Positions 2,599 to 17,780 of a DNA stretch of 64,000 nucleotides are shown here, piece after piece. The number at the start of each line of letters is the position of its first letter. The first letter of the stretch is position 1. Source of the DNA: Enterocloster asparagiformis (lineage in GTDB: Bacteria; Bacillota; Clostridia; Lachnospirales; Lachnospiraceae); contig JAGZSY010000016.1 in the NCBI GenBank assembly GCA_018380885.1, positions 59,284 through 123,283 on the forward strand, written 5' to 3'. Under the pieces are notes generated by a model. The model did not search any database. It was not told the origin of the DNA and saw only the letters and a list, made by a program, of their open reading frames with translations. The position numbers and the translations under genes are program-made.

Positions 2599-3204
2599 CT
2601 ACCCGGCCGCCAGCGCCGCCAATATTTTCCGGTAATCCGCGGGCGTATCCATATCCATCACGCACCTCATATCCTCTGTCTCCATATAGCGCGCGGCCCC
2701 GTCAAAGGCTTTCAGCGCGCCCTTTAAGCCCATCTCCCCGTTGTAGTCCAGAATCTGTCCGATACAGGACGCGGAGATCACCGGCGGATGTCCCTTTCTC
2801 ATGCGGTAGGACGGATAGGCCACCAGGCAGTCCCCGCCGGCCTCATAGACCTTTAAAAGCTGCCGGATCATCCGGCCCGTCACCAGAGGATAGTCCACCG
2901 GGAGGATCAGAAACGCGCCGGTCTCCGGTCTCAACGCCTGGATTCCGGCCTTCACGGAGGTAAACATCCCCTCCCCGAACCGGGGATTTTGCGCAATGTA
3001 CGCCCCGCTTCCGTTCAGGTGGCGCTCCACCTCCTCCCCCCGGTAACCGGTGACCACTATGATCCGGTCCGCCACGGACTGCAGCATCTCCACCTGCCTG
3101 CGGATCACCGTGGTTTCCCCCAGCGGCAGGAGTGGCTTGAGCTCCCCCATCCGGGAAGAATAACCGGCAGCCAGAAGCACCGCTTCCACACAGGTCCTTT
3201 TCAC
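2599..3204 (-). CDS. MocA-like nucleotidyltransferase (Moco cytidylyltransferase family)
   Basis: About 201 aa. It starts with the family signature VEAVLLAAGYSSRMGELKPL (nucleotide-binding loop with LAAGxSxRMG and a downstream Lys) and has the ILPVDYPLVT metal/nucleotide motif. The chosen start is the GTG at 3204 because an AGGAGG sits 7 nt upstream; a longer frame to 3291 has no such site. Relatives attach CMP to molybdopterin (MocA), and such genes sit beside molybdenum hydroxylases. Here it lies between the two subunit sets, so it probably makes or tailors their cofactor (inference). Confidence 0.85.
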   Translation of the reverse strand: MKRTCVEAVLLAAGYSSRMGELKPLLPLGETTVIRRQVEMLQSVADRIIVVTGYRGEEVERHLNGSGAYIAQNPRFGEGMFTSVKAGIQALRPETGAFLILPVDYPLVTGRMIRQLLKVYEAGGDCLVAYPSYRMRKGHPPVISASCIGQILDYNGEMGLKGALKAFDGAARYMETEDMRCVMDMDTPADYRKILAALAAG

Positions 3205-3323
3205 AATGGCACCTCCTCCCCATCCCGCCCCGGACTTCCGCCGGGGCGGATGGCAAATCATTACCGGCGGGCTGCGCCTTTTGCCATGCACCCGGCACAG
3301 CCTCCGCGCAGACCGCCTCTCAG

Positions 3324-5705
3324 TTATTGTCCCGATGCAGCCCTGGCATTTAACAGTGAATTTTTCACCAATGTCCTGGCAATCTGCACCTTATACTCGT
3401 TTTTCGACAGCGGGATGGCGCCGCTCAGCGCGATCTCGGCCGCCTCTGCGGCCAGCTCCTCCGTTATCTCCTTGCCGGCGATAAACGCCTCGGCCGCTGC
3501 GGCCCTCAGCGGAATCGGGGCCACGGCGCCCAGCACGATCCTGGCGTCCGCCACCTTTCCGCCCTCAAGCTTGTAAGCCGCCGCCACACTGACCACGGCG
3601 AAATCGTGGGAATCACGCACGCGGTACTTGTCATACCCCATTTTGTACTCCCTCATGGAGACGGGAACCACAATTTCCGTTACAATCTCATCCTCATCCA
3701 CCAGCCGGCAGTGGGCCTTCTTCATCATATCGCCGATCTTCTCCCGGCGTTTGTTGGTAACGATCTCCGCGTCCATAGCCGTCAGCACGGTGGCCACATC
3801 CGAGGGGTTGACCGCCAGGCAGCCGCAGTTAAAGCACCGCTTGGCCTCCTCCTGTACCGCCTCCCAGGACAGCCCGTAGGAGTCCTCCAGATGCAGTCCC
3901 CGCTCCTCCTTAGGCCGCTCCGGAAGCTTCGCCCCCTGGGAATGGCAGGTGCTGGAGGCGTCGAACTTCACAAGCTCTCCCAAGGGATGCTCGTGGTTTT
4001 TCGCCGGCTGTCCGGTCATAAAGCTGTCCACGAACACAGCCGCTTTCTTTCCGTCCGCAATTGCGTCCACCACGGTCTTGGGGCCCGTGGTCACGTCGCC
4101 CACCGCGAATACCTTGGGGATGCTGGTCTTTAACGTATCCGGCTCCACGGAAATAAGTCCGCGGTTTACCTTCAGCTCCAGCTCCTCGCCCAGGAAGGAC
4201 AAGTCCGTTTTCTGTCCCACCGCCATGAGGATGGAATTTCCTTCCAGCCGCGTGGTGTCGTCCTCGTCGTATGCCGGGGCGAAATGTCCGTTTTCGTCGA
4301 ACACCTGGGTGCACCGTTTCAGCACCAATCCTGTGATCTGTCCGTCCTGTCTGAGAATCTCCTTGGGCCCCCAGGAATTCATGATGGTGATTCCCTCTTC
4401 CCTGGCCCTGGCCACCTCTTCCTCGCTGGCCGGCATGTGCTTCTCGTCCTCCAGGCAGGCCATAATAACATTGGCTGCCCCCAGGCGTTTTGCAGTGATG
4501 GCCACGTCCACGGCCACGTTGCCTCCGCCCACTACGATAATGTCCTTGCCGATCTTGCTCTCCATCCACTTGTTGACTTCGATGAGGAAATCCAGGCCAA
4601 AGGTGGTCAGCTCCTCGCCGTCCAGCCCGATTAACGGCCGTTTCCAGGCTCCGGTATTTAAAAATACGCTGTCAAACTGTTCCACCAGATCGCTGACCGG
4701 AATATCCCGGCCGATTTCAGTCCCTGTCTTAAACTGGATGCCCATGGCCTCCAGGGCGGAGATCAGCTTTTTCACAATGTCCTTGGGAAGCCGGTATTCG
4801 GGAATGGCATAGCGCAGAAGCCCGCCCGCCTCCTCCATCTTGTCGTACACCAGAACCTGGTGCCCCAGCCTGCGCAGATAGTAGGCCGCCGTCAGTCCCG
4901 CGGGGCCCGAGCCTACAATGGCGGTTTTTCTGCCGCTCTCCGCCTCCGGGGCCTTCATAAACCGTTCGGCGTTGTCCAGGATATAGTCTCCCACATACCG
5001 CTCCAGGCCGCCGATATTCACGTGCTCGTCAAACTCCTCCCGCTTGCAGTTCATTTGACAGAAATGCGTGCAGACGCGGGATGTGATGGCCGGGATGGGG
5101 TTGGATTCCATCAAAATGGAAGCCGCGCCGTCCAAATCCCCCGCCCGGATGCAGGCCAGGTATTCCGGCACGTCCACATGGGCCGGGCAATTCTGGGAAC
5201 AGCCGCTGAGGTTCACCTTTTTGGCCCCAAAGATCGAATGGTTCCGGTTCTCCCCCGTCATGGCGTTGCAGTAGTCCCCGCCCTTTCTCAGGCAGCGGAT
5301 TCTGCCGCCGATCTCGTCGGGATAGCGGTAATACCAGCAGCGCACATCCTGGCAGAGATTTCCGCCGATGGTGGCCAGATTGCGGATCAGAGGGGTTGCC
5401 ACGCTCTTTGCCGCCATGGCTAACGCCTGGTAGCCGTCGTTCACCTCTGCCGACTCGGCGATGTCGCAGAGCTTGGCCGCCGCGCCGATTTTCAGCCCTT
5501 CCTCATCCGCCGTGATGTGATCTAAGCCCTCCACGGTCTTGATATTGACCAGCTGCTCCGGATAGTCCGGCTCCAGCTTATGTTTCAGCACACTGAGCAG
5601 ATCCGTGCCGCCTGCGATGATCCTGGAGCTTCCCGCCCCTTCTCTCAGGAGACCGGCCGCCTCATCGATACTTTCCGTATCAACATGGGCAAAATTTTTC
5701 AACAT
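3324..5705 (-). CDS. FAD subunit of molybdenum hydroxylase with inserted GltD-like oxidoreductase
   Basis: 793 aa, against about 290-330 for a normal FAD subunit. Residues 1-160 are the first half of a CoxM/HcrB-type FAD domain (AGGTDLLSVL; ATIGGNLCQD), with four cysteines (118, 123, 138, 146) spaced like the extra 4Fe-4S loop of 4-hydroxybenzoyl-CoA reductase beta subunits. Residues 161-628 are a GltD-like module: Fe-S cysteines (CSQNCPAHVDVP; VCTHFCQMNC), first dinucleotide fold VGSGPAGLTAAY (about 264-275), second VVGGGNVAVDVA (about 391-402) and FAVGDVTTGPKTVVDAI (about 533-549), ending RCFNCGC. The FAD domain then resumes at 629 with CLAVNPSDVATVLTAMDAE and runs to the end. No frameshift is visible. 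It starts 4 nt after the large-subunit stop. Confidence 0.93.
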   Translation of the reverse strand: MLKNFAHVDTESIDEAAGLLREGAGSSRIIAGGTDLLSVLKHKLEPDYPEQLVNIKTVEGLDHITADEEGLKIGAAAKLCDIAESAEVNDGYQALAMAAKSVATPLIRNLATIGGNLCQDVRCWYYRYPDEIGGRIRCLRKGGDYCNAMTGENRNHSIFGAKKVNLSGCSQNCPAHVDVPEYLACIRAGDLDGAASILMESNPIPAITSRVCTHFCQMNCKREEFDEHVNIGGLERYVGDYILDNAERFMKAPEAESGRKTAIVGSGPAGLTAAYYLRRLGHQVLVYDKMEEAGGLLRYAIPEYRLPKDIVKKLISALEAMGIQFKTGTEIGRDIPVSDLVEQFDSVFLNTGAWKRPLIGLDGEELTTFGLDFLIEVNKWMESKIGKDIIVVGGGNVAVDVAITAKRLGAANVIMACLEDEKHMPASEEEVARAREEGITIMNSWGPKEILRQDGQITGLVLKRCTQVFDENGHFAPAYDEDDTTRLEGNSILMAVGQKTDLSFLGEELELKVNRGLISVEPDTLKTSIPKVFAVGDVTTGPKTVVDAIADGKKAAVFVDSFMTGQPAKNHEHPLGELVKFDASSTCHSQGAKLPERPKEERGLHLEDSYGLSWEAVQEEAKRCFNCGCLAVNPSDVATVLTAMDAEIVTNKRREKIGDMMKKAHCRLVDEDEIVTEIVVPVSMREYKMGYDKYRVRDSHDFAVVSVAAAYKLEGGKVADARIVLGAVAPIPLRAAAAEAFIAGKEITEELAAEAAEIALSGAIPLSKNEYKVQIARTLVKNSLLNARAASGQ

Positions 5706-5709
5706 AATC

Positions 5710-7977
5710 TCACCTCGCCTTTCCTAATGCCTTTAAGATGTTCTCCGGTGTAAGGGGATAATCCATGAGCTGTATGCCGATGGCGTTGGACACAGCCATC
5801 ATGATCGCGCCCGGAAGCGGCGCCCCGGATATCTCGCCCACGCCGATGCCGCCGAATGCGCTCAGATCGTTGGGCGTTTCCTCTATGTGCGTCTCAAAAA
5901 CCGGAAGCTCCGGGAATACTCTCCACTTAAAATCCACCAGGTTGTTGGTCAGGAACCGGCCGGTCCCCTCGTCGAGAACCATCTCCTCGTTGATGGCGCT
6001 GTCGCTTCCGCAGCTTCCAAGGCCGCCCTCCAGCTGCATCTTCAAGTTGTACGGCTCAATGACCTGGCCCACGTCCGTGCCCTCCACGATGCGCACGATC
6101 TTGGCCGCGCCCGTTTCCGTGTCCACCTCCACTTCCACGAAGGAAATCATGAAGCAGGGCTTGGAGTGATCCATCTCAAACACGCCGTGCCCGGTGATGG
6201 TGTTCATGGGGCCCAGCACCGCGATCCACGGGATGGCCGCCTGGGGATTCTCTTTGATAAATATGATGCCGTCCCTGGTATCCAGCGCCTCCGCAGGACA
6301 TTGCAGCACAGCGGAAGCCCGCTCCAGAAGCTCGGCCTTCGCCTGCCTGGCGGCGTCTCCCACCATGCGCCCGTAGACCAGGGTGCCTCTGGAACCCGCC
6401 AGTCCCCAATCCCACGGGTTATCCTGGCTGTCCGGCGTGGAGATCGTGACCTTATCCAGCGGAAGATTCAGGATTTCCGCCGCCATCTTCACCACCGCGG
6501 ACCTCTGGCCCATGCCGGATTCCGCGATACAGACGTTGATATTGGCCGTGCCCCACCCATCAATCTTGACAAACGCTTCCCCGTGGAGCATACCGCAGTC
6601 CGCGCTGCCGTGCACGCAGCAGCCCACGCCGTACTGCTTGCTGCCCACCGTCTTGTAGGGCTTCAGCCAGCCGGGGAACTTCTCCTTCCAGCCAAAATGC
6701 TCGGCCGCGTGGTCCATCACATCGTTGTAGCTTAAGAAATGGTTCTCCCACCAGTGGCCCTCCACCCAGTAGTAGCCGCCGTTGATATCGCACATATTTT
6801 TCTTAAAAAACTCCACCGGGTCCAGATTCATCTTCGCCATGGCCATGGACAGAATGGGAATCAGGGAGGCGTAGGACTCCTGGCCGCCGAATCCGCGGAT
6901 ACCGCCGGAACGGCAGCGGTTGGTGGCGATCAGATGGGGCTGGTAATTCCAGTGCTTGCACTTGTTCAGCAGCAGCATTGCCCGGCCCAGGCCGTTGGCG
7001 ATCTGCCCCTGGCCGAAGTCGGAGTGCACGCCGGAGCCCACCAGCCAGGTGCCCTCGTAGGCGTGTACGGTTCCGTCCGGCAGCAGGCCGATCTTGGCGG
7101 TCAGCTTGCTCCCCAGCCGCAGCATGTAGGTGGAGAGATGGGCCTCCTTGGAGATCACCAGCTTCACCGGCCTTCCGCAGGCCTTGGAGAGGGCCGCGCA
7201 GTACAGGCCTTCCATGGGCACCGTGTTCTTGCTGCCGAAGCTGCCGCCCACGTTGCAGGAGATCACGCGCACGTTCACGCCGGGCATGCCCAGCTGCATG
7301 ATCATTTTCTGGATATTGGGGCTCTGGAAGCTGCCCTTCATGGTACAGTTGTTCGGACCGTCCCACCAGGCCACCACGCCGGGGCTCTCAGCGGGAAGGG
7401 GATTGGATATGGTTTCATACCTGGAGGTTCCCTCCACCACCACGCTGCACTCCTCAAAGCCCTTTTTCGTGTCTCCCATCACGATATCCTGCAGCGCCTT
7501 GGGCCCGAAGGGCGGGCAGCCTCTGGAAATGATGTTGTTGGGGAACTGCTCATAGAGCTGGGGCGCTCCGTCCGCAATTGCCTCGTCCAGGTTCTGGACT
7601 GAGGGCAGCACCTCGTACTCCACCTCAATCAGCTCCGCAGCCTCGTCCGCCGCTCTCACGCTGGAGGCTGCGATCAGCGCCACCGGGTCGCCAACAAAGC
7701 GCACGTGTTTATCCAGCAGGCGCTTCTGGGCCGGCATACCGGTGATCCAGTCAAATGCGTTTTCATATGTAAGGATCGTCCTGACCCCCGGCACCTCCAG
7801 GGCCTTTGTCACGTCGATCTTGGTGATCATGGCGTGGGGATGGGGGCTCATCTTGATCTTGCCGTACAGCATATTGTGCATATGGATATCGTTGCAGTAC
7901 TCCGCCGCTCCCGTGACGATTCCCCGCGCGTCGATTCTGGGGGCCGGCTTACCGATATATCTGAATTCTTTCCCCAT
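5710..7977 (-). CDS. Molybdenum hydroxylase large (Moco-binding) subunit, set 2
   Basis: 755-aa full-length molybdopterin subunit of the xanthine dehydrogenase/aldehyde oxidase family. It has the N-terminal hammerhead domain (YIGKPAPRIDARGIVTGAAEY), CNVGGSFGSKN near the cofactor, GIRGFGGQES, and a C-terminal GVGEISGAPLPGA that holds the expected catalytic glutamate. The mid-region is rich in His and Trp (VEGHWWENHF). It sits between its 2Fe-2S partner (1 nt upstream) and the FAD/GltD fusion (4 nt downstream), so the three should form one complex. Family members hydroxylate heterocycles or reductively dehydroxylate aromatic CoA esters; the substrate here is unknown. Confidence 0.92.
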   Translation of the reverse strand: MGKEFRYIGKPAPRIDARGIVTGAAEYCNDIHMHNMLYGKIKMSPHPHAMITKIDVTKALEVPGVRTILTYENAFDWITGMPAQKRLLDKHVRFVGDPVALIAASSVRAADEAAELIEVEYEVLPSVQNLDEAIADGAPQLYEQFPNNIISRGCPPFGPKALQDIVMGDTKKGFEECSVVVEGTSRYETISNPLPAESPGVVAWWDGPNNCTMKGSFQSPNIQKMIMQLGMPGVNVRVISCNVGGSFGSKNTVPMEGLYCAALSKACGRPVKLVISKEAHLSTYMLRLGSKLTAKIGLLPDGTVHAYEGTWLVGSGVHSDFGQGQIANGLGRAMLLLNKCKHWNYQPHLIATNRCRSGGIRGFGGQESYASLIPILSMAMAKMNLDPVEFFKKNMCDINGGYYWVEGHWWENHFLSYNDVMDHAAEHFGWKEKFPGWLKPYKTVGSKQYGVGCCVHGSADCGMLHGEAFVKIDGWGTANINVCIAESGMGQRSAVVKMAAEILNLPLDKVTISTPDSQDNPWDWGLAGSRGTLVYGRMVGDAARQAKAELLERASAVLQCPAEALDTRDGIIFIKENPQAAIPWIAVLGPMNTITGHGVFEMDHSKPCFMISFVEVEVDTETGAAKIVRIVEGTDVGQVIEPYNLKMQLEGGLGSCGSDSAINEEMVLDEGTGRFLTNNLVDFKWRVFPELPVFETHIEETPNDLSAFGGIGVGEISGAPLPGAIMMAVSNAIGIQLMDYPLTPENILKALGKAR

Positions 7978-7978
7978 A

Positions 7979-8482
7979 TTATTTTCTCCTTTCCGCCGCC
8001 TGCTTCACTGCCTCCAGCACCTGGTAATGGCTGATGCACCTGCAGTAATTCCCGGCCAGCGCTTCCTTGATTTCCTCCTCGTCGGGGTGCGGATTTTCCT
8101 GAAGCAGCGCTTCCGCCGCCATGATGATTCCCGGCGTACAGTAGCCGCACTGGAACGCGGAGTGATCCACAAAGGCCTGCTGCACCTCGTCCAGCTCCCC
8201 GGTCCTGGGATCCTGGACGCCCTCGATGGTCTGAATGTCCGCGCCGTCGCACTCCACTGTCAGTATGGTACAGGAGGGAACCGCTTTGCCGTTTAAGATC
8301 ACCGTACAGCACCCGCAGGCGCCGTCGTCGCAGGATATCTTTGTCCCTGTCAGAAGCAGCCTTTCCCGCAATGTCTCGGCCAGCGTGTCCGCCGGCGATA
8401 TATCACCTGCCGAATTTCCCACGCCCAGCCGGTATACATCGCCGTTCACTGTGATTGTAACCGTGGTTTTCATTTTACTCAT
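7979..8482 (-). CDS. Molybdenum hydroxylase 2Fe-2S subunit, set 2
   Basis: 167-aa [2Fe-2S]x2 subunit and the first gene of the operon. Motifs are CDDGACGCCTV in the ferredoxin-like domain, and CGYCTPGI and GNYCRCISHYQV in the second domain. The last is unusual because the family normally reads CRCTGY. The start at 8482 (MSKMKTTVTI) is preceded by AAGGAGG; an in-frame extension to 8539 would run into the promoter palindrome and is rejected. Transcription probably begins near 8557 from the promoter described separately. Confidence 0.9.
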   Translation of the reverse strand: MSKMKTTVTITVNGDVYRLGVGNSAGDISPADTLAETLRERLLLTGTKISCDDGACGCCTVILNGKAVPSCTILTVECDGADIQTIEGVQDPRTGELDEVQQAFVDHSAFQCGYCTPGIIMAAEALLQENPHPDEEEIKEALAGNYCRCISHYQVLEAVKQAAERRK

Positions 8483-8532
8483 GAACCATAACCTCCTTGT
8501 ATTTGTGAAATTTGCTAATTTCCCGTTTGCAC

Positions 8533-8550
8533 TTGACAAAAAATAGTCAA
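8533..8550. promoter_or_regulatory. 18-bp palindrome shared with the ubiD leader
   Basis: The palindrome TTGAC-N8-GTCAA lies here and an identical 18-mer (19 with the next T) lies at 14620-14637 before ubiD. On the plus strand its first six bases are the -35 hexamer of the PucR-type gene (TTGACA, 18-bp spacer, TAATAT at 8557-8562). On the minus strand it falls in the hydroxylase leader, 50 bp before the start codon. Its conservation at 14620, where no plus-strand gene follows, suggests a binding site or RNA hairpin and not merely a promoter element. Confidence 0.65.
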
Positions 8551-8563
8551 TATGACTAATATA

Positions 8564-8619
8564 AGTATAGCATGATAATTTGTAACCATCCTACAAAAGG
8601 GGCCCCCTCGTTTTGTAGG
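8564..8619 (-). promoter_or_regulatory. Hydroxylase operon promoter with upstream inverted repeat
   Basis: On the minus strand an extended -10, TGCTATACT (8564-8572), has no good -35: the expected position reads AGGATG. Instead the inverted repeat CCTACAAAA-N12-TTTTGTAGG (8590-8619) ends 20 bp from TATACT. This is the layout of an activator-dependent promoter. The ubiD promoter has the same repeat, the same 12-bp spacer and the same 20-bp distance. The repeat also lies in the predicted 5' leader of the divergent PucR-type gene, so that protein may bind it and autoregulate (inference). Confidence 0.75.
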
Positions 8620-8701
8620 CGGCCGCACCAGCGCTACATCCGGCCGTGAACTGATTTTGGCAAATATCCGGCACCGGCTTTTGAAAGGACAGGGATCGAT
8701 T

Positions 8702-10261
8702 ATGTTTGAAATGGAACAGTGGGCGCAGACCCGGTTATTTTCATCCTGTAAATTCCACACGCCGTTTTACGGCAGAGCAGTCACCGGTCTGGCTCTCTTT
8801 TCGGAGGCCGGGGAACCGGACCATACCGGCCGGCTGATCCTTACATATGGAAAGGAACTGGCACGCTGCCCGGAGGGAACCGCCTCCGCGCTGGACCGCC
8901 TGGAGAAAAGCGGAGCGGCAGGCCTGATTATCTGCTGTGATTCCCCGGACGGCATTTTGGTGGAGGAGCTGGCCCGGGAGTGCGAAAGCCGGAGCCTAAT
9001 CCTGGCGGAGCTGCCCTTCCCCTCGTCCTTCACGGACTTCATACGCATGTTTTACAGCTGCATGCCCTGCGCCGCCACAGGGGAAATCTGCGACTACGGC
9101 GAAATATTCCAACGGCTCCAGTCCGCCTTCTTTTCCCACGGCCTGGACCAGCTGTTAAGAGAGCTGTACCGGTGGACCGGCCGCCAGACCGCCCTTGTGG
9201 TCGGCCAGGATACCTACGTGCACCCGCGCACGCCCATTTTGGACCCGGTGATCTTCTACCCTGTATACTGGCAGAAGGAATCCGCCCTGTCCCCCTTCGT
9301 GTACGTCCGCCGGTATAACGCCACCCAGCCGCCCACCTACATTCTCCAGGCCGATCTGTACAAAAACAGCCTGCCCTTCGGCATGCTGTTTCTGATCGGG
9401 AATGGTGAAAAATTTAAAGAGACCGATTATTATCTGCTCAACTACGCGTCCATTCTCTGCACCGGACTCAGCGACTTAAACCTCCGCTCCCGGCAGATTC
9501 AGGCCCTGTTCGCCAAAATCCGCAGGGAGAACACCTTAACCGGGGCAGAGCTGGAGCTGCTGCCTGAGGAAGGGTACGCCCTGGCCCTCCAGGAGTTTCA
9601 CAACGCCCTGCCTGGGACGGCCGTCACCGGGGCCGAGGACTATCTCTCCTACCTGCTCCACTACCATTTTCCCCGGAACCTCTGCTACAGCTTTCAAAAC
9701 AACGAGCTGCTGATCTTTGCTTCCACGGAGGATGTGGAGAATTTCTGCCGGAAGCTGACCTCCCTCTTAAACACAACCGGAAGGCAGTACCACGTGGGAA
9801 TCAGCCGCAAATACGACCGCGCCCAGGTGGTCACCGCCTTCTCGGAGGCCATCCACGCCGTCAAAATGGCCGGCCTGCTGGACTATGGGCAGAACCCCTG
9901 CTTTTTCCATCAGCTGGGAATCTACCGCCTCTTCACTTACCCGGAAAACCCCTGGGCCGTCAACCAGATGCTGGGCGAGATGGACGTGATGTTAAACGAT
10001 CTGGACAACGAGAAAAAAGACATTCTTACCCTGACCGTGCGGACCTTTGTGAAAAACAACTTCAGCTACCAGAAAACCGCGGACGAGCTGTTCACCCACG
10101 TCAATACCGTGCGCTACCGCATCCACCAGCTGGAGGAGCTGTGGAACGCGGACCTCTCCAGCACGGAGGGGCGCCTGCTGTTCAGCGTGCTGGCAAAGCT
10201 TCTGCCGCTTTGGATGCAGGAATTTTATAACCGGCAGCCGGGCGAGGACGAGGGGCGGTAG
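8702..10261 (+). CDS. PucR-family transcriptional regulator
   Basis: 519 aa. The C-terminus carries the PucR/CdaR-type helix-turn-helix (VRTFVKNNFSYQKTADELF then HVNTVRYRIHQLEELW). The roughly 300-440 region resembles the GGDEF-like linker domain of this family, and the N-terminal sensor part is not recognised. The ATG at 8702 (MFEMEQWAQ) is chosen over an upstream in-frame start at 8657. PucR-family members are often activators that respond to a pathway metabolite, for example in purine catabolism. It is divergent from the hydroxylase operon and is the best candidate to bind the inverted repeats at 8590-8619 and 14704-14733. Confidence 0.88.
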   Translation: MFEMEQWAQTRLFSSCKFHTPFYGRAVTGLALFSEAGEPDHTGRLILTYGKELARCPEGTASALDRLEKSGAAGLIICCDSPDGILVEELARECESRSLILAELPFPSSFTDFIRMFYSCMPCAATGEICDYGEIFQRLQSAFFSHGLDQLLRELYRWTGRQTALVVGQDTYVHPRTPILDPVIFYPVYWQKESALSPFVYVRRYNATQPPTYILQADLYKNSLPFGMLFLIGNGEKFKETDYYLLNYASILCTGLSDLNLRSRQIQALFAKIRRENTLTGAELELLPEEGYALALQEFHNALPGTAVTGAEDYLSYLLHYHFPRNLCYSFQNNELLIFASTEDVENFCRKLTSLLNTTGRQYHVGISRKYDRAQVVTAFSEAIHAVKMAGLLDYGQNPCFFHQLGIYRLFTYPENPWAVNQMLGEMDVMLNDLDNEKKDILTLTVRTFVKNNFSYQKTADELFTHVNTVRYRIHQLEELWNADLSSTEGRLLFSVLAKLLPLWMQEFYNRQPGEDEGR

Positions 10262-10359
10262 ACGGCGGCGGAGCGCCGCACCAGCTCCGGCGATCTCATA
10301 GTTCCGCCGCATCGACTCCAGCGGTCTCACCGCTTTGCCGCGGCCGCCTCACCCCGCAT

Positions 10360-10878
10360 TCACTCCAAAAGTCCCGCCGCCCCCAGCGCAATGGACGCCG
10401 CCTGGGGCAGCCATGGGGCGTAGTCCTGGGGCCGCTGCACCAGACCCGAGGTCAGGTCCTCCGCGTCCACCCAGGCCATCTCCTCGATCTCCTCCCGGTT
10501 GGGCGCCACCGCGCCCTGGTATTCTCCCACAAAAACGTGGTCGTACTCATATTCGTACAAATCTTCGTCAAATTTATAACAATAAATAAAATGTCCCGCC
10601 TCCCTCACCGGGCAGGTGATCCCGACTTCCTCCCGCAGCCGCCTCTCCACCGCCTCCGAAAGGCTCTCCCCCCGCCGCGGATGGGAACAGCAGGTGTTGG
10701 CCCAGAGCCCGCCCGAGTGGTATTTGCTGTAGGCCCGCCTCTGTAAAAGGATTTTTCCGTCGTGGTAGAGAAAAATGGAAAACGCCCGGTGCAGCGTCGG
10801 CCTGACATGGGCCTTCATCTTCTCCTCATATCCGATTTCCCGGTCCTCAAAATCAACCAGTATGATGTGATCCGCCAT
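10360..10878 (-). CDS. idi: Isopentenyl-diphosphate delta-isomerase, type 1
   Basis: 172-aa Nudix-fold IPP isomerase that interconverts IPP and DMAPP. The catalytic-cysteine motif NTCCSHPRRGE, the Nudix-like helix EAVERRLREEVG and the acidic YEYEYDHVF segment are present, and the length is normal. It overlaps the LpdD-like gene by 26 bp and is the last gene of the ubiD-MFS-ubiX-lpdD-idi array. UbiX needs dimethylallyl phosphate to prenylate FMN, so a local isomerase would supply that prenyl donor; this role is inferred from context and not from the protein itself. Confidence 0.9.
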   Translation of the reverse strand: MADHIILVDFEDREIGYEEKMKAHVRPTLHRAFSIFLYHDGKILLQRRAYSKYHSGGLWANTCCSHPRRGESLSEAVERRLREEVGITCPVREAGHFIYCYKFDEDLYEYEYDHVFVGEYQGAVAPNREEIEEMAWVDAEDLTSGLVQRPQDYAPWLPQAASIALGAAGLLE

Positions 10879-11260
10879 CCGTTTCCCTCCCCGCCTTCAC
10901 GGCTGCGATATATTCCTCCAGCGCCTCCATGGCATTTTCCTCGATCTGCTTCAGCTCCTGCTCCCGCGCCCCGTCAATGTGAATTCCCACGGTGACGGAG
11001 ACGTTGACCTCCAGCGCCTTGCAGAGCCTTCCGGCCGCTTTCCCGGCCAGGTACACGTCCTTGTGGCCGGGCACGGTGGCGGTCCAGAGGTCGCAGCTGT
11101 TCCCGCTCCCGGTCAGGCTTGGCCTGGGCGATGCCAGCACCACCCCGCCCACGTGGGGCGCCTCGCCCCCGGTCAGGCACAAGCAGATTCCATTTCCGGT
11201 GTCCAGCGCTTCCAGCCGCACCTGCGCCCTGCCCTGCCCCTTCACAATTCTGTCGTCCAT
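10853..11260 (-). CDS. LpdD/VdcD-like prenyl-flavin decarboxylase accessory protein
   Basis: 135 aa. Residues around GGEAPHVGGVVLASPRPSLTG and VPGHKDVYLAGKAAGRLCKAL match my recollection of the small D subunit found with UbiD-type hydroxyarylic acid decarboxylases (the lpdBCD and vdcBCD operons), which is thought to help deliver or mature prenyl-FMN. The start at 11260 (MDDRIVKGQG) is preceded by AAGGGGG; the frame extends further upstream without a ribosome-binding site. It lies 22 bp after ubiX. Family assignment is by motif memory and should be checked by profile search. Confidence 0.72.
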   Translation of the reverse strand: MDDRIVKGQGRAQVRLEALDTGNGICLCLTGGEAPHVGGVVLASPRPSLTGSGNSCDLWTATVPGHKDVYLAGKAAGRLCKALEVNVSVTVGIHIDGAREQELKQIEENAMEALEEYIAAVKAGRETDGGSHHTG

Positions 11261-11282
11261 GCAAATCCCCCTTTCAACGCCC

Positions 11283-11843
11283 TTATTTGCCCTCCCACGG
11301 GATGAAGGCCTTGTGCTCCATGCCGAACTGCATGAGCACCTTGCCCACAATGTGGTCCACCTGCTCCTTTACCGTGGTGGGATGGTTGTAGAACGTGAGC
11401 ATGGGCGGGAGCAGGATACAGCCGTAATCGGCCGCCTTTTTCAGGTTATCCAGGTGGATTCTGCTCAGGGGCATCTCCCTTGGCACCAGGACCACCCTGC
11501 GGCTCTCCTTGAGACACACGTCCACGGCCCGCACCAGGAGATTGGCGCCGTACCCGCTTGCGATGGCGGATACAGTTTTCATGCTGCACGGAATCACGAT
11601 CATGCCGTCCGTGCGGAAGGAGCCGCTGGAGATGGAGGCCGCCATGTTCCTGTCGTCATGGCAATAGTCGGCCAGGGCCATCACCTCCTTGACATCCAGC
11701 TCCGTCTCATATTTAAAATTCTCCATGGCCCCCTGGGTGATCACCAGGTGGATCTCACAATTCTCCTGCCTGCGCAGGGCCTTTAACATCTCATATCCCA
11801 TGACCACGCCGCTGGCCCCGGAAATTCCTACGATAATACGCAT
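11283..11843 (-). CDS. ubiX: UbiX-family flavin prenyltransferase
   Basis: 186 aa, normal for the family. The N-terminal GISGASGVVMGYEML is the UbiX flavin-phosphate loop; VIPCSMKTVSAIASGYGANLLVRAVDV is split here as VIPCSMKTVSAIASGYG and NLLVRAADV-like positions and marks the FMN site. LVPREMPLSRIHLDN is the conserved LVxREtPls motif. It makes prenylated FMN from FMN and dimethylallyl phosphate, the cofactor of UbiD enzymes. It sits 10 bp after the MFS gene and before the LpdD-like gene, the order seen in bacterial B-C-D decarboxylase systems. Confidence 0.93.
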   Translation of the reverse strand: MRIIVGISGASGVVMGYEMLKALRRQENCEIHLVITQGAMENFKYETELDVKEVMALADYCHDDRNMAASISSGSFRTDGMIVIPCSMKTVSAIASGYGANLLVRAVDVCLKESRRVVLVPREMPLSRIHLDNLKKAADYGCILLPPMLTFYNHPTTVKEQVDHIVGKVLMQFGMEHKAFIPWEGK

Positions 11844-11852
11844 AACATCCTC

Positions 11853-13049
11853 CTATGGCTCATGATGTATTTTGTCCGCCTCCGGCCGTTTCAGCAGAAT
11901 GGCCAGCACTGCGGCAATAATTAAGAATAAACCGAAATACATGGTTGTGACGGTGTAGGAACCGCTCATATCGCTGGCAAAGCCGCCCAGGAACGGTCCG
12001 AAAAGCGCCGAGAAAAAGCAATAGGACGTAAAGCTCAGTCCAAATATAGCGCCGAAATTGCGAAGCCCGAAATATTTCCGCAGCATAACCGGCGTCACGG
12101 TGAACACGATGCCTGTGGTCATGCCGATCAGGCAGAGACACAGGGCCGCCAGGGCGAAGCTTCTGATGAACGTCAGCATACAGCAGGCGGCGCCGCCCAG
12201 CAGGAATGGAATCCACATAAACAGCCGCCCGTCCGCCTTGTCCAGCATGGTGCCCACCACGATGCGGATCACCCCGTTGAAAACGTTAAAAAAGATCAGC
12301 AGTCTGGACCCCTGCTCCGCAGTAAAGCCGTTGACCTCCATCAGGGGAATAATGTGCATCACAAGGCCGATGCCCGCGGTCCCCGCCAGGCCCCAGATCA
12401 GCCACAGCATCTTGAAGGACCGGTCCGCCGTGGCCTCCCCCACCGTGTATCCCGGCAGCTTCACGTTTCCCCCCGGGCCGCCGCTCTGCCTCGGGCTGTC
12501 GGCGAATACCGAGGACGCCAGGCCGAATACCAGCACGATGCCGCTGATGATCCACAGCGCCGTCCGGTAGCCCCAGCCGCCCAGGAAAAACCGGTACAGC
12601 GGGATCATCAGCGCCGCGGACAGGCCGAAGCACAGATTGTAAACGCCTGAGACCAGCCCGCTCTTCTGCGGCCACCATTTCTGCACGCAGGTCAGGCCCG
12701 GGCCGTACACCAGGCTGCCGCTGATCCCCAGAATGATCCCGCTGCCGTAGAGCATATAGACGTTGGCCGCCAGGGAAAATCCCACCAGCGCTGCCGCCGC
12801 CAGCACCATGCCGATGGAGATGGTAAAACGGGTCCCCCGCTCGTCCGCCAGCCGCCCGGCCTTGTAGTTAAACGCTCCCATGGAGAACAGCGCGACGGTC
12901 ATGAGCAGACCCACGGAAGCCTTTGTTATCTGAAACAGTTCCAACCATATGGGAGAGAGGATTCCAAGCAAACCAAATATCAGGCTCCCGTACACCCACA
13001 CCACTGCCGACGCTCCTATCAATGCTTGCTTTCTACCGGTAGTTACCAT
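11853..13049 (-). CDS. MFS transporter, oxalate/formate antiporter-like
   Basis: 398-aa polytopic membrane protein with about 12 hydrophobic segments. The cytoplasmic-loop motif AGRLADERGTR follows TM2, and the C-half GLRNFGAIFG and the general layout resemble the oxalate:formate antiporter group of the major facilitator superfamily. The start is the ATG at 13049 (MVTTGRKQ) with AGGAGG upstream. It lies between ubiD and ubiX and probably imports the carboxylate substrate or exchanges it for the decarboxylated product (inference). A terminator precedes it, so its level may depend on read-through or on its own promoter. Confidence 0.83.
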   Translation of the reverse strand: MVTTGRKQALIGASAVVWVYGSLIFGLLGILSPIWLELFQITKASVGLLMTVALFSMGAFNYKAGRLADERGTRFTISIGMVLAAAALVGFSLAANVYMLYGSGIILGISGSLVYGPGLTCVQKWWPQKSGLVSGVYNLCFGLSAALMIPLYRFFLGGWGYRTALWIISGIVLVFGLASSVFADSPRQSGGPGGNVKLPGYTVGEATADRSFKMLWLIWGLAGTAGIGLVMHIIPLMEVNGFTAEQGSRLLIFFNVFNGVIRIVVGTMLDKADGRLFMWIPFLLGGAACCMLTFIRSFALAALCLCLIGMTTGIVFTVTPVMLRKYFGLRNFGAIFGLSFTSYCFFSALFGPFLGGFASDMSGSYTVTTMYFGLFLIIAAVLAILLKRPEADKIHHEP

Positions 13050-13100
13050 ATGTTCCTCCTCACCGGGGCTGTCGTTCAGCCCCAAAGAGCTTCCGAACAG

Positions 13101-13131
13101 AAAAAACAACAGCCGGCAGCGCCGGCTGTTG
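13101..13131 (-). terminator. Intrinsic terminator after ubiD
   Basis: A perfect 11-bp stem CAACAGCCGGC / GCCGGCTGTTG (13107-13117 with 13121-13131) and 3-nt loop is followed on the minus strand by six T (13101-13106). It begins 12 bp after the ubiD stop and would reduce transcription into the MFS-ubiX-lpdD-idi genes. Confidence 0.9.
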
Positions 13132-13142
13132 GGTGATTATAT

Positions 13143-14543
13143 TCAGAAGCGGTCTCCGAATCTCTTCTTTCCTCTTTCCATAATTTCAGGATCGTCCACC
13201 AGCTGGGGAATCTTATTTCCACAGCGGATGTACTCCTCTGTCGGCATGGTCGCGTCAATACCCATGCCGGCCGAATACTGACGCTCTGAGAACGGGCAGG
13301 ACGGATCCAGCCACTGGCCCGGTATTCTGGGGATAATGGTCACGTCCCGGTCCGCCTTGACTCTGGTGGACATTGCCCAGTGAACCATCTCGTAATCCCA
13401 GATATCGATATCCTTGTCAACCACAATGATATGCTTATACGGACCGCGGCTGATGCCCCACAGGGCGTTCATGACCTTCTGCGGGTGGCCTTTGTACATT
13501 TTATCGATCTTGACGATCGCCTCATAGGCTGGGTTGCAGCGCATATCCAGAACTCCGGGCACCACTGCCTTCAACAGCTTGAAGGATTCCGCCTGATGGG
13601 TGCGCCCCACCACATAATGGCTCTCCGACGGGTACCACTGCTCGCGGGTGCCGTGGAAAATAGGATTGTGGCGGTGGGTAATGTGCTCTACAACGAACAC
13701 CGGAAGCGTGGATGCCTCCCCGTAGAAGCCGGTGTACTCGCCGAACCACTCCGTCACCTCGTGCTGGCGGTCATGGGGATAAATATGGCCTTCCAGAACC
13801 CACTCGGCCGTGGCCGGCACGTTGATGTCGATGGTATCGCACTTCACCAGCTCCACCGGCTCCCCGCGCAGCGCGCCTGCGATGGTGTACTCGTCCACGC
13901 CCGGGGACGTTCCCACGCCGCCGGCGATTTCGATCAGAGGCTCAACGCCTGTCACCAGGGCCATGGGCATTGGCTTCTCCAGCCGCTCCCATTTCTCCAA
14001 ATGCATTCCGCCGTGGGTGGAAGCCGGAGCGCCCCAGCACATCTTGTTCTTTTCCTGGATTCCCATGCGGTAGATTCCCAGGTTGTGGACGCCGTCCTCC
14101 GGGTCCTTGGTCACGGAGATCAGCAGCGTGCCCGGGAACGCGGCCTTGTCCTTGATATGCCATTTTACATTACAGATTTTGGAGAGGTCGATGTCGTCGC
14201 CGTCGATGGTCTCCTCCTTACAGGGGCCGGTCTCCACCAGTACCGGGGGAACCAGGGTCTCCGTGCGCCTGGCCCACTCGTTGTTGTATGTATCCCAGCT
14301 CTCCAGTCCCAGCGCGGCCAGGAAACGGCTGTCCTCAGCCAGCATCCCCGCAACCATGGGATAGTCCATCCCTTTGATATTCTCAAAGTAAAGCGCCGGA
14401 CCCAATTTCTGAAGCGTGGCTCTCGTGGCATAGTTCACTTCCCATTCAGGGTCCATCTCCTCCTTCACGTGATCCAGCTTTCCCTTCTCCTCAAGATAAG
14501 CCAGAAATTCCCTCATGTCCTTCCAATTCGCTTTCAGTTCCAA
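13143..14543 (-). CDS. ubiD: UbiD-family prenyl-FMN-dependent decarboxylase
   Basis: 466 aa. UbiD fold features include EIAGGVGTSPGVDEY, PATAEWVLEGHI, FGEYTGFYGEAS (the usual EGPFGEYTGYY region, here TEWFGEYTGF), LDMRCNPAY and a C-terminal GMGIDATMP. The start is taken as TTG at 14543 because GAAGGAGG lies 8 nt upstream; the next ATG is inside the conserved N-terminus. UbiD enzymes reversibly decarboxylate aromatic, heteroaromatic or unsaturated acids using prenyl-FMN. The neighbouring UbiX, LpdD-like and IPP isomerase genes support cofactor supply. The substrate is not determinable, but shared promoter elements tie it to the molybdenum hydroxylase operon. Confidence 0.92.
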   Translation of the reverse strand: MELKANWKDMREFLAYLEEKGKLDHVKEEMDPEWEVNYATRATLQKLGPALYFENIKGMDYPMVAGMLAEDSRFLAALGLESWDTYNNEWARRTETLVPPVLVETGPCKEETIDGDDIDLSKICNVKWHIKDKAAFPGTLLISVTKDPEDGVHNLGIYRMGIQEKNKMCWGAPASTHGGMHLEKWERLEKPMPMALVTGVEPLIEIAGGVGTSPGVDEYTIAGALRGEPVELVKCDTIDINVPATAEWVLEGHIYPHDRQHEVTEWFGEYTGFYGEASTLPVFVVEHITHRHNPIFHGTREQWYPSESHYVVGRTHQAESFKLLKAVVPGVLDMRCNPAYEAIVKIDKMYKGHPQKVMNALWGISRGPYKHIIVVDKDIDIWDYEMVHWAMSTRVKADRDVTIIPRIPGQWLDPSCPFSERQYSAGMGIDATMPTEEYIRCGNKIPQLVDDPEIMERGKKRFGDRF

Positions 14544-14619
14544 TACCGTTACCTCCTTCTGACAAGATATAGCCCACGGGCCCAGCCGGGCCCTCCCCAA
14601 CAGTTCGCTCCACCCGGGA

Positions 14620-14637
14620 TTGACAAAAAATAGTCAA
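14620..14637. promoter_or_regulatory. 18-bp palindrome in the ubiD leader
   Basis: An identical copy of the TTGAC-N8-GTCAA palindrome found at 8533-8550. It lies between the predicted ubiD promoter and the ubiD start (76 bp upstream of it). As RNA it could form a 5-bp hairpin with an 8-nt U-rich loop; as DNA it is a plausible operator. Confidence 0.65.
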
Positions 14638-14677
14638 TCCAGCGGCGACCGCCGCCAGACGGATGTTCTATGGGGTC

Positions 14678-14733
14678 AGTATATCATCGCAGAAAAAAGA
14701 CAGCCTACAAAAAGTTTTGAAACCTTTTGTAGA
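14678..14733 (-). promoter_or_regulatory. ubiD promoter with upstream inverted repeat
   Basis: Minus-strand extended -10 TGATATACT (14678-14686). Twenty bp upstream of TATACT begins CCTACAAAA-N12-TTTTGTAGA (14704-14733), nearly identical to the repeat at 8590-8619 and in the same register. The repeat also sits just after the TIM gene and, with its flanks (GACAG..CTGTC), could serve as a terminator-like hairpin for that gene. Confidence 0.72.
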
Positions 14734-14763
14734 CTGTCATTTTGCCGGAGGACTTCCGGTCTC

Positions 14764-15549
14764 TCAAACGCCTCTGTCCCGTACCGCAGCCGCATCCCGG
14801 ATCAGCTTTGCAAAAGCATCCACCTGAAACGCGGTGCGGGTCGTGAACAGACCGTCAATATCAGGCACGGCAATCAGCGCGTCGGAATTATCAGGGTTCA
14901 CGCTTCCGCCGTACAGAGCCGGAATGTCCCGACCAGCCCGGCCAAAAAGCTCTTCCAGGCAGTCCTTGATAACCCCGTGCATCGCCCGGGCGTACTCCAC
15001 AGGAGCCGGGGTTCCGTTGACGCCGATGGACCAGACCGGCTCATAGGCGATCCAAACCCGGCTCAGCTGTTCCCGGCTTACCCCGTGCAGGCCGATCTTT
15101 AACTGTGTGCGCAGCACCTCCGCGCTGACCCCGAACGATTTCTCCCGCGCCGTCTCTCCCACGCAGAGCAGCGCTGTAAAGCCGTGTTCCAGCGCCTTCA
15201 GAACCTTCCGATTCTCCATGTAATCGTCCTCGTCAAACACATGCCTCCGCTCGGAATGTCCCGCCATGACCAGGTCAACGCCCAGCTCCTTCAACATCAA
15301 AGGGGAGATTTCCCCGGTAAACTGCCCTTCCTCCTCCCAGCACATATTCTGCGCGCCCAGCATGAAAGAGCTGCGGACGCTGCTTCCCGCGGCGCTCTCC
15401 AGCGAGGTGTAGGACGGTATGAAGAAAAGCTGGATATTCTCCGGGTTTATATCCCCGGCCGCCTTTATGACCGCCTCCAGGTATTCCTGCGTAGCCCGGA
15501 TATTTTTGTACATTTTAAAATTACTGCCAAAATACAGCTTTTTGCCCAT
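14764..15549 (-). CDS. Triosephosphate isomerase-family protein (possible tetrulose-phosphate isomerase)
   Basis: 261-aa TIM barrel with all family residues visible: SNFKMYK (Lys), AGHSERR (electrophilic His), AYEPVWSIG (Glu) and LYGGSVNPDN (phosphate loop). The start at 15549 (MGKKLYFG) is chosen by alignment with the family; a frame extends 10 codons upstream. It could convert the DHAP produced by the PdxA2 step into glyceraldehyde 3-phosphate. A TIM homologue paired with an RpiB homologue is also the EryH/EryI arrangement of erythritol catabolism, where they isomerise tetrulose phosphates. Which role applies is open. Confidence 0.85.
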   Translation of the reverse strand: MGKKLYFGSNFKMYKNIRATQEYLEAVIKAAGDINPENIQLFFIPSYTSLESAAGSSVRSSFMLGAQNMCWEEEGQFTGEISPLMLKELGVDLVMAGHSERRHVFDEDDYMENRKVLKALEHGFTALLCVGETAREKSFGVSAEVLRTQLKIGLHGVSREQLSRVWIAYEPVWSIGVNGTPAPVEYARAMHGVIKDCLEELFGRAGRDIPALYGGSVNPDNSDALIAVPDIDGLFTTRTAFQVDAFAKLIRDAAAVRDRGV

Positions 15550-15615
15550 TACAGCGTTCCTCCGCTCCCAATTCTTCATCGCCGGTTTTCAGCCCTGCGC
15601 CGGTGCGATCCCCAA

Positions 15616-16269
15616 TCACTCGCCAAAAACCGCCTTATAATCCGCCTGGAATTTGAGAATACCGGCGTCGGTCAGGGGATGCCTTGTCATCTGCTCCAGG
15701 ACCGCGTACGGAACCGTGGCGATGTCCGCGCCCGCAAGAGCGCAGTCCGTCACATGAATGGGGGAGCGGACGCTGGCGCAGATAATCTCAGCCTCGATGC
15801 CCGCCACGTCAAATATATCGGAAATCTCACGGATCAAGTCCACGCCTCTCACCGAAATGTCGTCCAGCCTACCCAAAAACGGGGAAACGTAAGACGCCCC
15901 GGCCCTGGCCGCCAAAAGCGCCTGGCTGGCTGTAAAGATCAGGGTTACATTGGTTTTTATGCCTTCCGCAGTCAAAACCTTAACCGCCTTCAGGCCCTCC
16001 GCGGTCATGGGGATTTTGACTACCATGTTGGGATGAATTTTCGCAATCTGCCGGCCTTCCGCGATCATCCCCTCCGCGTCCGTGGTGGTCGCCTTCACCT
16101 CGCCGCTGATCGGTCCGTCTACAATCGAGGCGATTTCCCGAATGACCTCCTCAAAATCCCTTCCCTCCCTGGCGATCAGGGACGGGTTGGTGGTGACGCC
16201 GCAGATGATTCCCATGTCGTTGGCCTTTCGGATATCCTCCACCTTGGCCGTGTCAATAAAAAATTTCAT
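15616..16269 (-). CDS. Transaldolase-like / fructose-6-phosphate aldolase family
   Basis: 217-aa small transaldolase (TalC/FSA class). [11 protein letters not shown] holds the conserved Asp, GVTTNPSLI the substrate loop, [12 protein letters not shown] the Schiff-base Lys, and [19 protein letters not shown] with SPFLGRLDD complete the barrel. It cleaves or transfers dihydroxyacetone units. In this cluster it could combine DHAP-derived or tetrose-phosphate intermediates into hexose phosphate. It is separated by 67-72 bp from the genes on each side, in the same orientation. Confidence 0.88.
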
Positions 16270-16341
16270 AATACGCCTCCGCTTTCCGGTATCCCGGCAG
16301 CTTGAAGGAAGCCTGCCGGGTCCCTTATCTATTGCCAGGTT

Positions 16342-16785
16342 CTACGCCCTGCTGTAATCATAATCCACAAACCGCTTGACCTTTGGCTGGGAACTGCTGC
16401 CCGGATCAAATTCACAGGTCAAAAATTCCGCAGCCATCACTTCCCGCTCCTTGCTGCCTGTTGTGAACGCGCCCATGCAGGCAATATTGGCATCATTGCT
16501 GAGGCGCGCCCTCTGGGCGGAATAATAATCGGTGATCAGCGCCGCGTACGCCCCCTTCACCTTGTTGGCAGCGATGGAAACGCCGATGCCGGTGCCGCAG
16601 AGCAGAATCCCGCGGTCGAACTTCTTAGCCGCAACCGCCTCCGCCACTTCAATGGCCACATTGGCGTAAATCGGGTCCTCGCTTCCGAAATCCGTGACCT
16701 CGCCGTAGCCGTTTGACTCAATAAACTGAATCAAATCCTGCTTTTCCTTCTGTGCGTTGGGATCGCATCCGATTGCAATCTTCAT
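16342..16785 (-). CDS. RpiB/LacAB-family sugar-phosphate isomerase
   Basis: 147 aa, the usual RpiB length. It has the N-terminal MKIAIGCDPNAQ, the RGILLCGTGIGVSIAANK motif with the catalytic Cys and anion hole, and SNDANIACMGA. The family isomerises aldose/ketose phosphates; members include ribose-5-P isomerase B, allose-6-P isomerase and the tetrulose-4-phosphate isomerase EryI/DerI. Given the four-carbon acid-sugar genes around it, a tetrose-phosphate substrate is the most reasonable guess, but this is context only. Confidence 0.85.
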   Translation of the reverse strand: MKIAIGCDPNAQKEKQDLIQFIESNGYGEVTDFGSEDPIYANVAIEVAEAVAAKKFDRGILLCGTGIGVSIAANKVKGAYAALITDYYSAQRARLSNDANIACMGAFTTGSKEREVMAAEFLTCEFDPGSSSQPKVKRFVDYDYSRA

Positions 16786-16814
16786 GTCTGTATCCTCCCT
16801 TCTGATGCCGGACC

Positions 16815-17780
16815 TCAGTCAAACTTTTGTCCGGGAAGCGGATACTGGGGACAGCCGAACTTTTTGGCCCACCAGTTGGTGATAAACGGCGTCAGGATAC
16901 AGGAAACAACTACGGAAGCGGCAACCTGTACCGTGGCGGCCGCCACAAACGGCTCCCAGGCAGTGTCAATCAGCGCAACAGCAGCCGGAACCGCCACCGC
17001 GTTGCCCGCGGTTGTTGCAACGCCCCATCCCGCATAGCCGGGACGCTTGGAGATTAACCGGTCGCACATGCAGATAAAGGCGCCGCCCACAAATACGGTG
17101 ATCAGTCCCAGAATAATGCCGGACGGACCGCCCTTGATAATATTCATCAGATTGATGCCTGTGCCCAGCGCGAAGCCGATCAGCGGAATGATGGCGCTGC
17201 CCATAGGCGCGAATAAATCCCTCATGTCGTGGTCCAGATTGCCGATTACCATTCCTAATGCCACCGGAATGATCGCGGCCAGCAGGGACATAAACGGTAT
17301 ATTTGCCAGGCCGGAGGCCCCCAGCGCAACCAGCGTAAAGAAAGGTCCGTCATTCAGCGCCAGCAGGGGGAAGCAGCCGCAGTCGGAATTGTCACCGTAG
17401 TTGCCCATCAATGTCAAGTACACGGAGCCGTTGGAATTTGTCACCGCGCTGATCACGGCCAGCGTGGTCAGACCCATGATGCCGCTCTGTCCGAACAGCT
17501 TGCCGATTGCGATACCAAGGCCTGCGCCGATCAGGAACTTTGATACCAGCAGCACGCCGCCCCGCTTGAGAACCTTGGGCATATCCCGAACCTGCAGCGC
17601 CGTTCCCATGCAGAACAGCTGTGCGCCCAGCAGCGTGTTGGTGCCGGCGCTGGAGAATATCGCCGTTGTCAGGCCGCCGATTTGCAGGGCCTGCGGAAAC
17701 AGTGTGTTGATCAAAGCGCCAAGAAGCAGCGGAATTACCATCATACCTGCCGGAACCTTCTTTAAAAACTTCATAATCAT
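16815..17780 (-). CDS. KdgT-family 2-keto-3-deoxygluconate permease-like transporter
   Basis: 321-aa membrane protein with about ten hydrophobic helices. The sequence MKFLKKVPAGMMVIPLLLGA, AVTNSNGSVYLTLMGNYGD and GVATTAGNAVAVPAAVA match the KdgT family. The start at 17780 is preferred over 17786 because AAAGGGG lies 9 nt upstream of it and only 3 nt upstream of the other. Located between the DUF1537 kinase and the RpiB-like gene, it probably imports the four-carbon acid sugar. Confidence 0.87.
   Translation of the reverse strand: MIMKFLKKVPAGMMVIPLLLGALINTLFPQALQIGGLTTAIFSSAGTNTLLGAQLFCMGTALQVRDMPKVLKRGGVLLVSKFLIGAGLGIAIGKLFGQSGIMGLTTLAVISAVTNSNGSVYLTLMGNYGDNSDCGCFPLLALNDGPFFTLVALGASGLANIPFMSLLAAIIPVALGMVIGNLDHDMRDLFAPMGSAIIPLIGFALGTGINLMNIIKGGPSGIILGLITVFVGGAFICMCDRLISKRPGYAGWGVATTAGNAVAVPAAVALIDTAWEPFVAAATVQVAASVVVSCILTPFITNWWAKKFGCPQYPLPGQKFD

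Follow-up and report, generated by a model that had tools for sequence, protein, structure and literature searches.

An inverted repeat shared by a molybdenum-enzyme operon and a ubiD operon of Enterocloster asparagiformis is a predicted operator for a PucR-type regulator

Among the closest described systems is GabR of Corynebacterium glutamicum, a PucR-type activator that is encoded divergently to its target and binds inverted repeats of 21 bp (PMC7652997). In the passages of that source that treat the family, the other characterised PucR-type regulators are activators, the exception being Bacillus subtilis PucR, which both activates and represses (PMC7652997). Here we describe a PucR-type gene (8702-10261, + strand) in a 64,000-nucleotide stretch of Enterocloster asparagiformis DNA (assembly GCA_018380885.1, contig JAGZSY010000016.1; hereafter the window). 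The gene lies between two operons on the − strand, one running from 8482 and encoding a molybdenum (Mo) enzyme of the xanthine-oxidase family (the hydroxylase operon), the other running from 14543 and encoding a UbiD-family decarboxylase, a major facilitator superfamily (MFS) transporter, a UbiX-family flavin prenyltransferase and an isopentenyl-diphosphate isomerase (the ubiD operon). Both operons are preceded by copies of the same inverted repeat, which we call E1. We consider it probable, from the sequence and its conservation, that the PucR-type product of the gene at 8702 acts as the activator of both operons by binding to E1, which would give this regulator a predicted operator and tie two uncharacterised enzyme operons into one regulon.

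Like GabR, the regulator described here would be a divergent PucR-type activator with repeats close upstream of its target promoter (between −87 and −23 for GabR), but GabR, described as a local regulator, has a pair of 21-bp repeats at a single promoter, whereas here two promoters have one 28-bp repeat each, and the target pathway is not the same (PMC7652997). AdeR and PutR of Bacillus subtilis, as the same passages portray them, also combine palindromic sites (24 and 17 bp) with activation, but their targets lie in amino-acid catabolism, and the likeness is one of description rather than of site sequence (PMC7652997). On the enzyme side, the Ucdh urolithin C dehydroxylase cluster of Enterocloster, in the part of its description that we draw on, is a substrate-induced Mo enzyme of the xanthine-oxidase family in the same genus, accompanied by regulators and a transporter; it differs in that the FAD (flavin adenine dinucleotide) subunit in the window has a GltD-like module, and this comparison too is by description rather than by sequence (PMC12771579). 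In one open-access library we found nothing linking PucR to Enterocloster, Hungatella or UbiD, and among the matches listed from the broader literature none appeared to concern this system. The operator is newly described, and a PucR-type regulon is itself of a known kind. HosA is a MarR-type regulator of the enterobacterial hydroxyarylic-acid decarboxylase operon. It resembles the present system in that a UbiD/UbiX-type decarboxylase operon has a regulator dedicated to it, but differs in family, and here the proposed PucR-type activator would join the decarboxylase operon to a Mo-enzyme operon.

E1 has the form CTACAAAA-N12-TTTTGTAG and occurs as two exact copies in the window, both on the − strand: site A (8591-8618), the putative operator of the hydroxylase promoter, which lies inside the predicted pucR 5′ leader, and site B (14705-14732), the putative operator of the ubiD promoter. 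A pattern scan of all 64 kb that allowed up to three mismatches returned just these two places, each with none, and 100 shuffled versions of the window gave a mean of 0.08 matches and a maximum of 1. An earlier reading of this DNA (the sequence-only reading) had placed the repeats at 8590-8619 and 14704-14733, where we also find them; the 20 bp that it gave between repeat and TATACT holds for 9-bp arms, and the 8-bp arms used here give 21 nucleotides (nt). When sequence matched for dinucleotide composition was simulated, the composite of an E1-type site and a −10 element was absent from 300 stretches of 19.5 kb and from 100 of 64 kb. An exact copy of E1 in AT-rich sequence of an unrelated family genome (G261, discussed below) shows that a chance copy can arise. 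Against this stand the shuffles, the empty simulations and the conservation of the repeat at relatives' promoters, which already contradicts a chance match between sites A and B; we give that explanation next to no credence, in agreement with the sequence-only reading.

A search with the regulator protein returned 34 matches, 32 of them at 41-100% identity counting the window's own, of which 24 were aligned. Scanning contigs for the regulator gave seven loci: [Clostridium] asparagiforme (84% identity), three Hungatella (43-46%) and three weak relatives (L005-L007; 28-30%). E1 is present upstream of the hydroxylase operon in all four strong relatives (43-84%), a count that leaves out the weak ones, whose loci contain no E1, and it also precedes ubiD in C. 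asparagiforme, which alone among these relatives has a ubiD orthologue. Its presence upstream of orthologous operons was a check that the sequence-only reading had proposed. All 16 half-site bases are invariant in the seven promoters of five genomes (two in the window, two in C. asparagiforme and three in Hungatella). The spacer, by contrast, agrees with that of window site A at 9 of 12 positions in the hydroxylase promoter of C. asparagiforme and at only 2 to 5 of 12 in the remaining five promoters. As judged from this comparison, E1 is a real footprint, because the half-sites are held constant while the spacer diverges.

The repeat is also confined to these promoters on a genome scale. In C. 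asparagiforme (6.35 Mb), a search allowing two mismatches found two places, both exact and both at these promoters. Each of the three Hungatella genomes has one exact E1, at the pucR/hydroxylase promoter only; further matches in G002, G003 and G004 carry two mismatches and are about as frequent as matches to the reversed control. Among 397 family genomes (a set that does not include G004), a pucR orthologue (E at most 1e-40) was found in three and exact E1 in four, and the three are among the four; the reversed pattern matched in one genome, G116. Treating the genomes as independent, the odds of such an overlap are 4 in 10.3 million, but two of these genomes are sister species. E1 thus tracks the pucR-like gene, the second check put forward by the sequence-only reading. 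A ubiD orthologue (E 1e-100) is present in 1 of the 397 genomes, the same one that has two E1 sites. Another four genomes, in which the homologues of the fused FAD subunit are all distant (42-51%), have neither the regulator at 1e-40 nor exact E1, and a filtered scan of the loci of such homologues (L072-L076) did not find E1; the family-wide scans for pucR and for FAD homologues scored the best three or two candidates per genome. Within the genus, pucR occurs in 1 of 17 genomes. We also considered, and rejected, a widespread repeat or mobile element (exact E1 is present in 4 of the 397 family genomes, window positions 8300-14900 have no plasmid match by megablast, and the full composite of repeat and −10 is absent from viral contigs) and a known RNA family (no Rfam match at gathering score in the window).

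The architecture of the target promoters suggests how E1 might act. Both have an extended −10 element, TATACT, on the − strand with TG one base before it, at 8564-8569 for the hydroxylase operon (TGCTATACT) and at 14678-14683 for the ubiD operon (TGATATACT). As the sequence-only reading had held, neither has a usable −35: the best hexamer at a spacing of 16-18 nt matches the consensus at 2 of 6 positions for site A and 3 of 6 for site B, and in a two-hexamer promoter scan of 8000-17000 neither TATACT formed part of a listed promoter. The same holds more widely, with −35 scores of at most 3/6 in all nine promoters from the window, its relatives and the paralogue operons described below. Of the seven orthologous promoters, three have 21 nt between E1 and the −10 and four have 22 nt, and the promoter-proximal half-site overlies the −35 position. 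If transcription starts 7 nt past TATACT, the centre of E1 falls near −47, which we take to be the position of an activator. It is also conceivable that the PucR-type protein binds E1 mainly to repress pucR or the target operons, since E1 lies inside the predicted pucR transcript, at about +23 to +50. However, promoters without a usable −35, with E1 ending 21-22 nt before the −10, do not look like targets of a repressor, and on the ubiD side there is no divergent gene to repress; we regard repression as the main role as unlikely.

A paralogous system in Hungatella bears on which protein reads the repeat. H. effluvii encodes a second regulator, PucR2 (397 amino acids), that is 34% identical to the window's regulator over 374 residues and keeps 54% identity in the helix-turn-helix (HTH) region. 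Its gene is the last in an operon for FAD, 2Fe-2S and Mo subunits and a flavin oxidoreductase, which is non-orthologous to the hydroxylase operon of the window and lies near another UbiD/UbiX pair. In H. effluvii and H. hathewayi the promoter of this operon carries CTACAAAA-N13-TTTTGGAG, followed after 21 nt by TATAAT with TG before it. When four whole genomes were searched with the relaxed pattern CTACAAAA-N11..14-TTTTGKAG, seven places were found, all seven at these promoters, and the reversed control gave none. The full composite, CTACAAAA-N12/13-TTTTGKAG-N18/19-TGNTATANT, has nine distinct sites in the DNA examined, and these are the nine promoters. The proposal of the sequence-only reading that one activator controls both operons, most simply the PucR-type protein encoded at 8702, is therefore supported by E1 at orthologous operons, by co-occurrence and by the architecture of the paralogue's promoter. 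As a separate observation, the H. hathewayi PucR2 gene (L033, 5509-6659) matches that of H. effluvii in two reading frames rather than one; the gene may be broken, or the record may contain an error.

The two promoters share a further element, not described in the sequence-only reading. E3 is an 18-bp dyad, TTGACTATTTTTTGTCAA, that is identical downstream of both −10 elements, on the − strand at 8533-8550 (copy A) and, in the predicted ubiD 5′ leader, at 14620-14637 (copy B). On the + strand, copy A yields the TTGACA of a predicted pucR promoter, TTGACA-N18-TAATAT (8533-8562, from a promoter scan), which overlaps the hydroxylase promoter head-on. TTGACA-N18 followed by TAATAT, TAAGAT or TAAAAT is found in all five loci, so conservation of E3 on the pucR side is sufficiently explained by its contribution of the pucR −35. 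On the ubiD side, copy B forms no pucR-like promoter, and a second binding site there is therefore possible. Covariation in E3 amounts to a single compensatory pair, which is not significant (143 of 500 shuffles were equally good).

Could E1 instead be read by some other regulator, with its gene elsewhere, that happens to co-occur with the hydroxylase operon, with PucR reading another site such as E3? E3 is common to the same two promoters, and exact matches to its degenerate form, TTGAYTATTTWTTRTCAA, are limited to those two promoters in C. asparagiforme. In addition, the orthologues of pucR and of the hydroxylase operon are never seen apart, so that distribution alone cannot assign E1 to pucR. 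In Hungatella, however, the left half of E3 has decayed (the degenerate form has no exact match in the three genomes) whereas E1 is kept, and a paralogous PucR-type gene with a non-orthologous Mo-enzyme operon has an E1-like site at the same distance from its −10. We therefore think such a regulator improbable and favour PucR as the protein that reads E1.

Several observations weigh against this assignment. Because pucR and the hydroxylase operon are always together in the loci examined, the evidence does not completely distinguish PucR from some other regulator of the operon. The independent genomes are few, being two of the Enterocloster type and three Hungatella. G261 has an exact E1 with no pucR at E 1e-40, and TATAAT lies 20 nt away; we judge this copy to be chance, because the site is AT-rich and precedes a gene for a HAD hydrolase. 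The N13 GGAG variant of the repeat also occurs in 2 of 366 other family genomes (G107 and G121). Finally, a weaker candidate promoter on the same strand, GTTACA-N17-TATATT (8586-8558; 9 of 12 matches), overlaps site A and has a −35-like hexamer.

Site B has a likely second role in the window's species, which the sequence-only reading had not mentioned. Read on the − strand, it makes up the centre of a hairpin of 18 bp that has TTTTTT after it (14738-14699; −25.6 kcal/mol, z −7.55). Since this stable hairpin and its T-run lie 25 nt past the stop codon of the triosephosphate-isomerase gene, site B is likely to serve both as operator and as the stem of that gene's intrinsic terminator (14699-14738, − strand). 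The E1 copy at ubiD of C. asparagiforme also folds, and together these hairpins raise the question of whether the repeats are RNA structures (terminators or leader elements) rather than operators. In C. asparagiforme, however, ubiD is preceded by another gene, for a protein of 1596 amino acids with GLUG and weak choline-binding-type repeats, and this gene has its own hairpin and T-run, after which E1 follows as a separate element. Moreover, site A lies upstream of the hydroxylase start, and the paralogue's site is not a perfect palindrome. The base pairs of E1 never vary, and there is no compensatory change, whereas a hairpin would tolerate paired changes; this invariance is consistent with base-specific reading. 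We conclude that RNA structure is very unlikely as the full explanation for E1 and continue to view the repeats as operators. DNA homology between the window and C. asparagiforme stops inside E1 (the blastn alignment ends at 14714), and the sequences past that point agree in 56 of 126 columns, no more than shuffled sequences do. Since E1 is intact in both genomes, it is whole on both sides of the rearrangement boundary.

The regulator itself is a predicted protein of 519 amino acids with a C-terminal HTH_30 domain at residues 444-496 (PF13556; 56.8 bits, cut-off 27). The N-terminal PucR domain (PF07905) scores 22.6 bits against a cut-off of 33.5, and the close relatives P0002 and P0006 are annotated with PF07905. 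The GGDEF-like domain PF17853 gave no match at E 0.001; it is not a required feature, being present, according to the passages on the family, in about half of its members (PMC7652997). The predicted structure (mean pLDDT 79.6) has PucR-type C-terminal structures as its top matches, namely the C-terminal part of Rv2242 (9f80) and BAD_0249 (3onq), at E 8.8e-6 and with low coverage (TMq 0.24-0.26). Identity to the three Hungatella orthologues is 72-75% in the HTH region and 23-27% in the first 125 residues; conservation of the HTH while the sensor diverges is what would be expected with an unchanged operator. The Mo subunits of the window and H. effluvii share 90% identity but the regulators only 46%, suggesting that the sensor part of the regulator evolves much faster than the enzyme. 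No PucR relative was confirmed in viral contigs.

How might the regulator work? We infer binding and activation from the genomic association, the position of the operator and the passages on the family in PMC7652997; autoregulation and dependence on an inducer are presumed as well. An inducer-bound dimer or higher oligomer of the PucR-type protein would occupy the two half-sites of E1 and recruit RNA polymerase to the extended −10, since the half-site nearer the promoter occupies the position where a −35 would be expected. In this way both the Mo-enzyme operon and the ubiD-MFS-ubiX-idi operon would be switched on. Since the hydroxylase and pucR promoters overlap head-on and E1 falls within the pucR transcript, regulator or polymerase bound for the hydroxylase operon would also limit pucR.

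More tentatively, these proteins could represent a small PucR-type subfamily that reads CTACAAAA half-sites and is dedicated, in gut anaerobes, to systems in which a xanthine-oxidase-family Mo enzyme goes together with a UbiD/UbiX decarboxylase. In the Enterocloster-type genomes one regulator would join the two enzymes into a single pathway, encoded by two operons, for one aromatic or heteroaromatic acid. The Hungatella paralogue would drive an independent Mo-enzyme operon beside another UbiD/UbiX pair, and the operator could form part of the terminator of an upstream gene that is unrelated. With the two operons of the window in one regulon, a single inducer screen with one reporter could give a lead to the substrates of the Mo enzyme and the UbiD decarboxylase alike. 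In human-gut Clostridia a related kind of Mo enzyme, in the account of Ucdh that we draw on, makes diet-derived products such as urolithin A (PMC12771579).

The hydroxylase operon begins with genes for the 2Fe-2S subunit (7979-8482), the molybdopterin subunit (5710-7977) and the FAD subunit (3324-5705), all with Pfam domains above cut-off, followed by a MobA/MocA-like nucleotidyltransferase (2599-3291). Beyond these, on the same strand, lie the putative FAD subunit of a second xanthine-oxidase-family enzyme (1532-2413; assigned through 88% DNA identity to the C. asparagiforme locus L001, where 3074-4048 is FAD_binding_5) and its putative 2Fe-2S subunit (1027-1662); by comparison with L001, the Mo subunit of this enzyme lies beyond the window start. 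The molybdopterin subunit matched 13 NCBIfam models for named enzyme types, including xanthine dehydrogenase and 4-hydroxybenzoyl-CoA reductase, and reached the cut-off of none, the best being XdhA (354.6 of 780). Its nearest solved structures are quinoline 2-oxidoreductase and 4-hydroxybenzoyl-CoA reductase, matches that are too broad for naming a substrate. The FAD subunit is of the xanthine-oxidase type fused to an inserted GltD-like reductase module and Fer4_20; homologues with this fusion (42-53%) in other family genomes adjoin other regulators or none that we recognised.

The ubiD operon, also on the − strand, consists of the decarboxylase gene (13143-14543), with a TTG start after AAGGAGGT, and genes for the MFS transporter (11853-13109), the UbiX-family prenyltransferase (11283-11843) and the isopentenyl-diphosphate isomerase (10360-10878). 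Membership of the UbiD and UbiX families is clear (TIGR00148, 292 bits, cut-off 244.85; TIGR00421, 225.2 bits, cut-off 108.9), and the models for a named substrate class fall below their cut-offs (VdcC, 266.6 of 650; VdcB, 261.1 of 290). For the decarboxylase, the nearest solved structures are 6h6x/6h6v and UbiD, again too broad for naming a substrate. From the enzyme families of the two operons, a role in the metabolism of an aromatic or heteroaromatic acid may be proposed. The isomerase presumably provides the prenyl donor for UbiX; its gene adjoins ubiX and is possibly dedicated to the supply of prenylated flavin. Finally, the window's UbiD is 99.8% identical to that of C. asparagiforme over 468 residues, compared with 84-93% for its operon mates and 84% for PucR, a near-identity that could reflect either unusually strong constraint or recent exchange.

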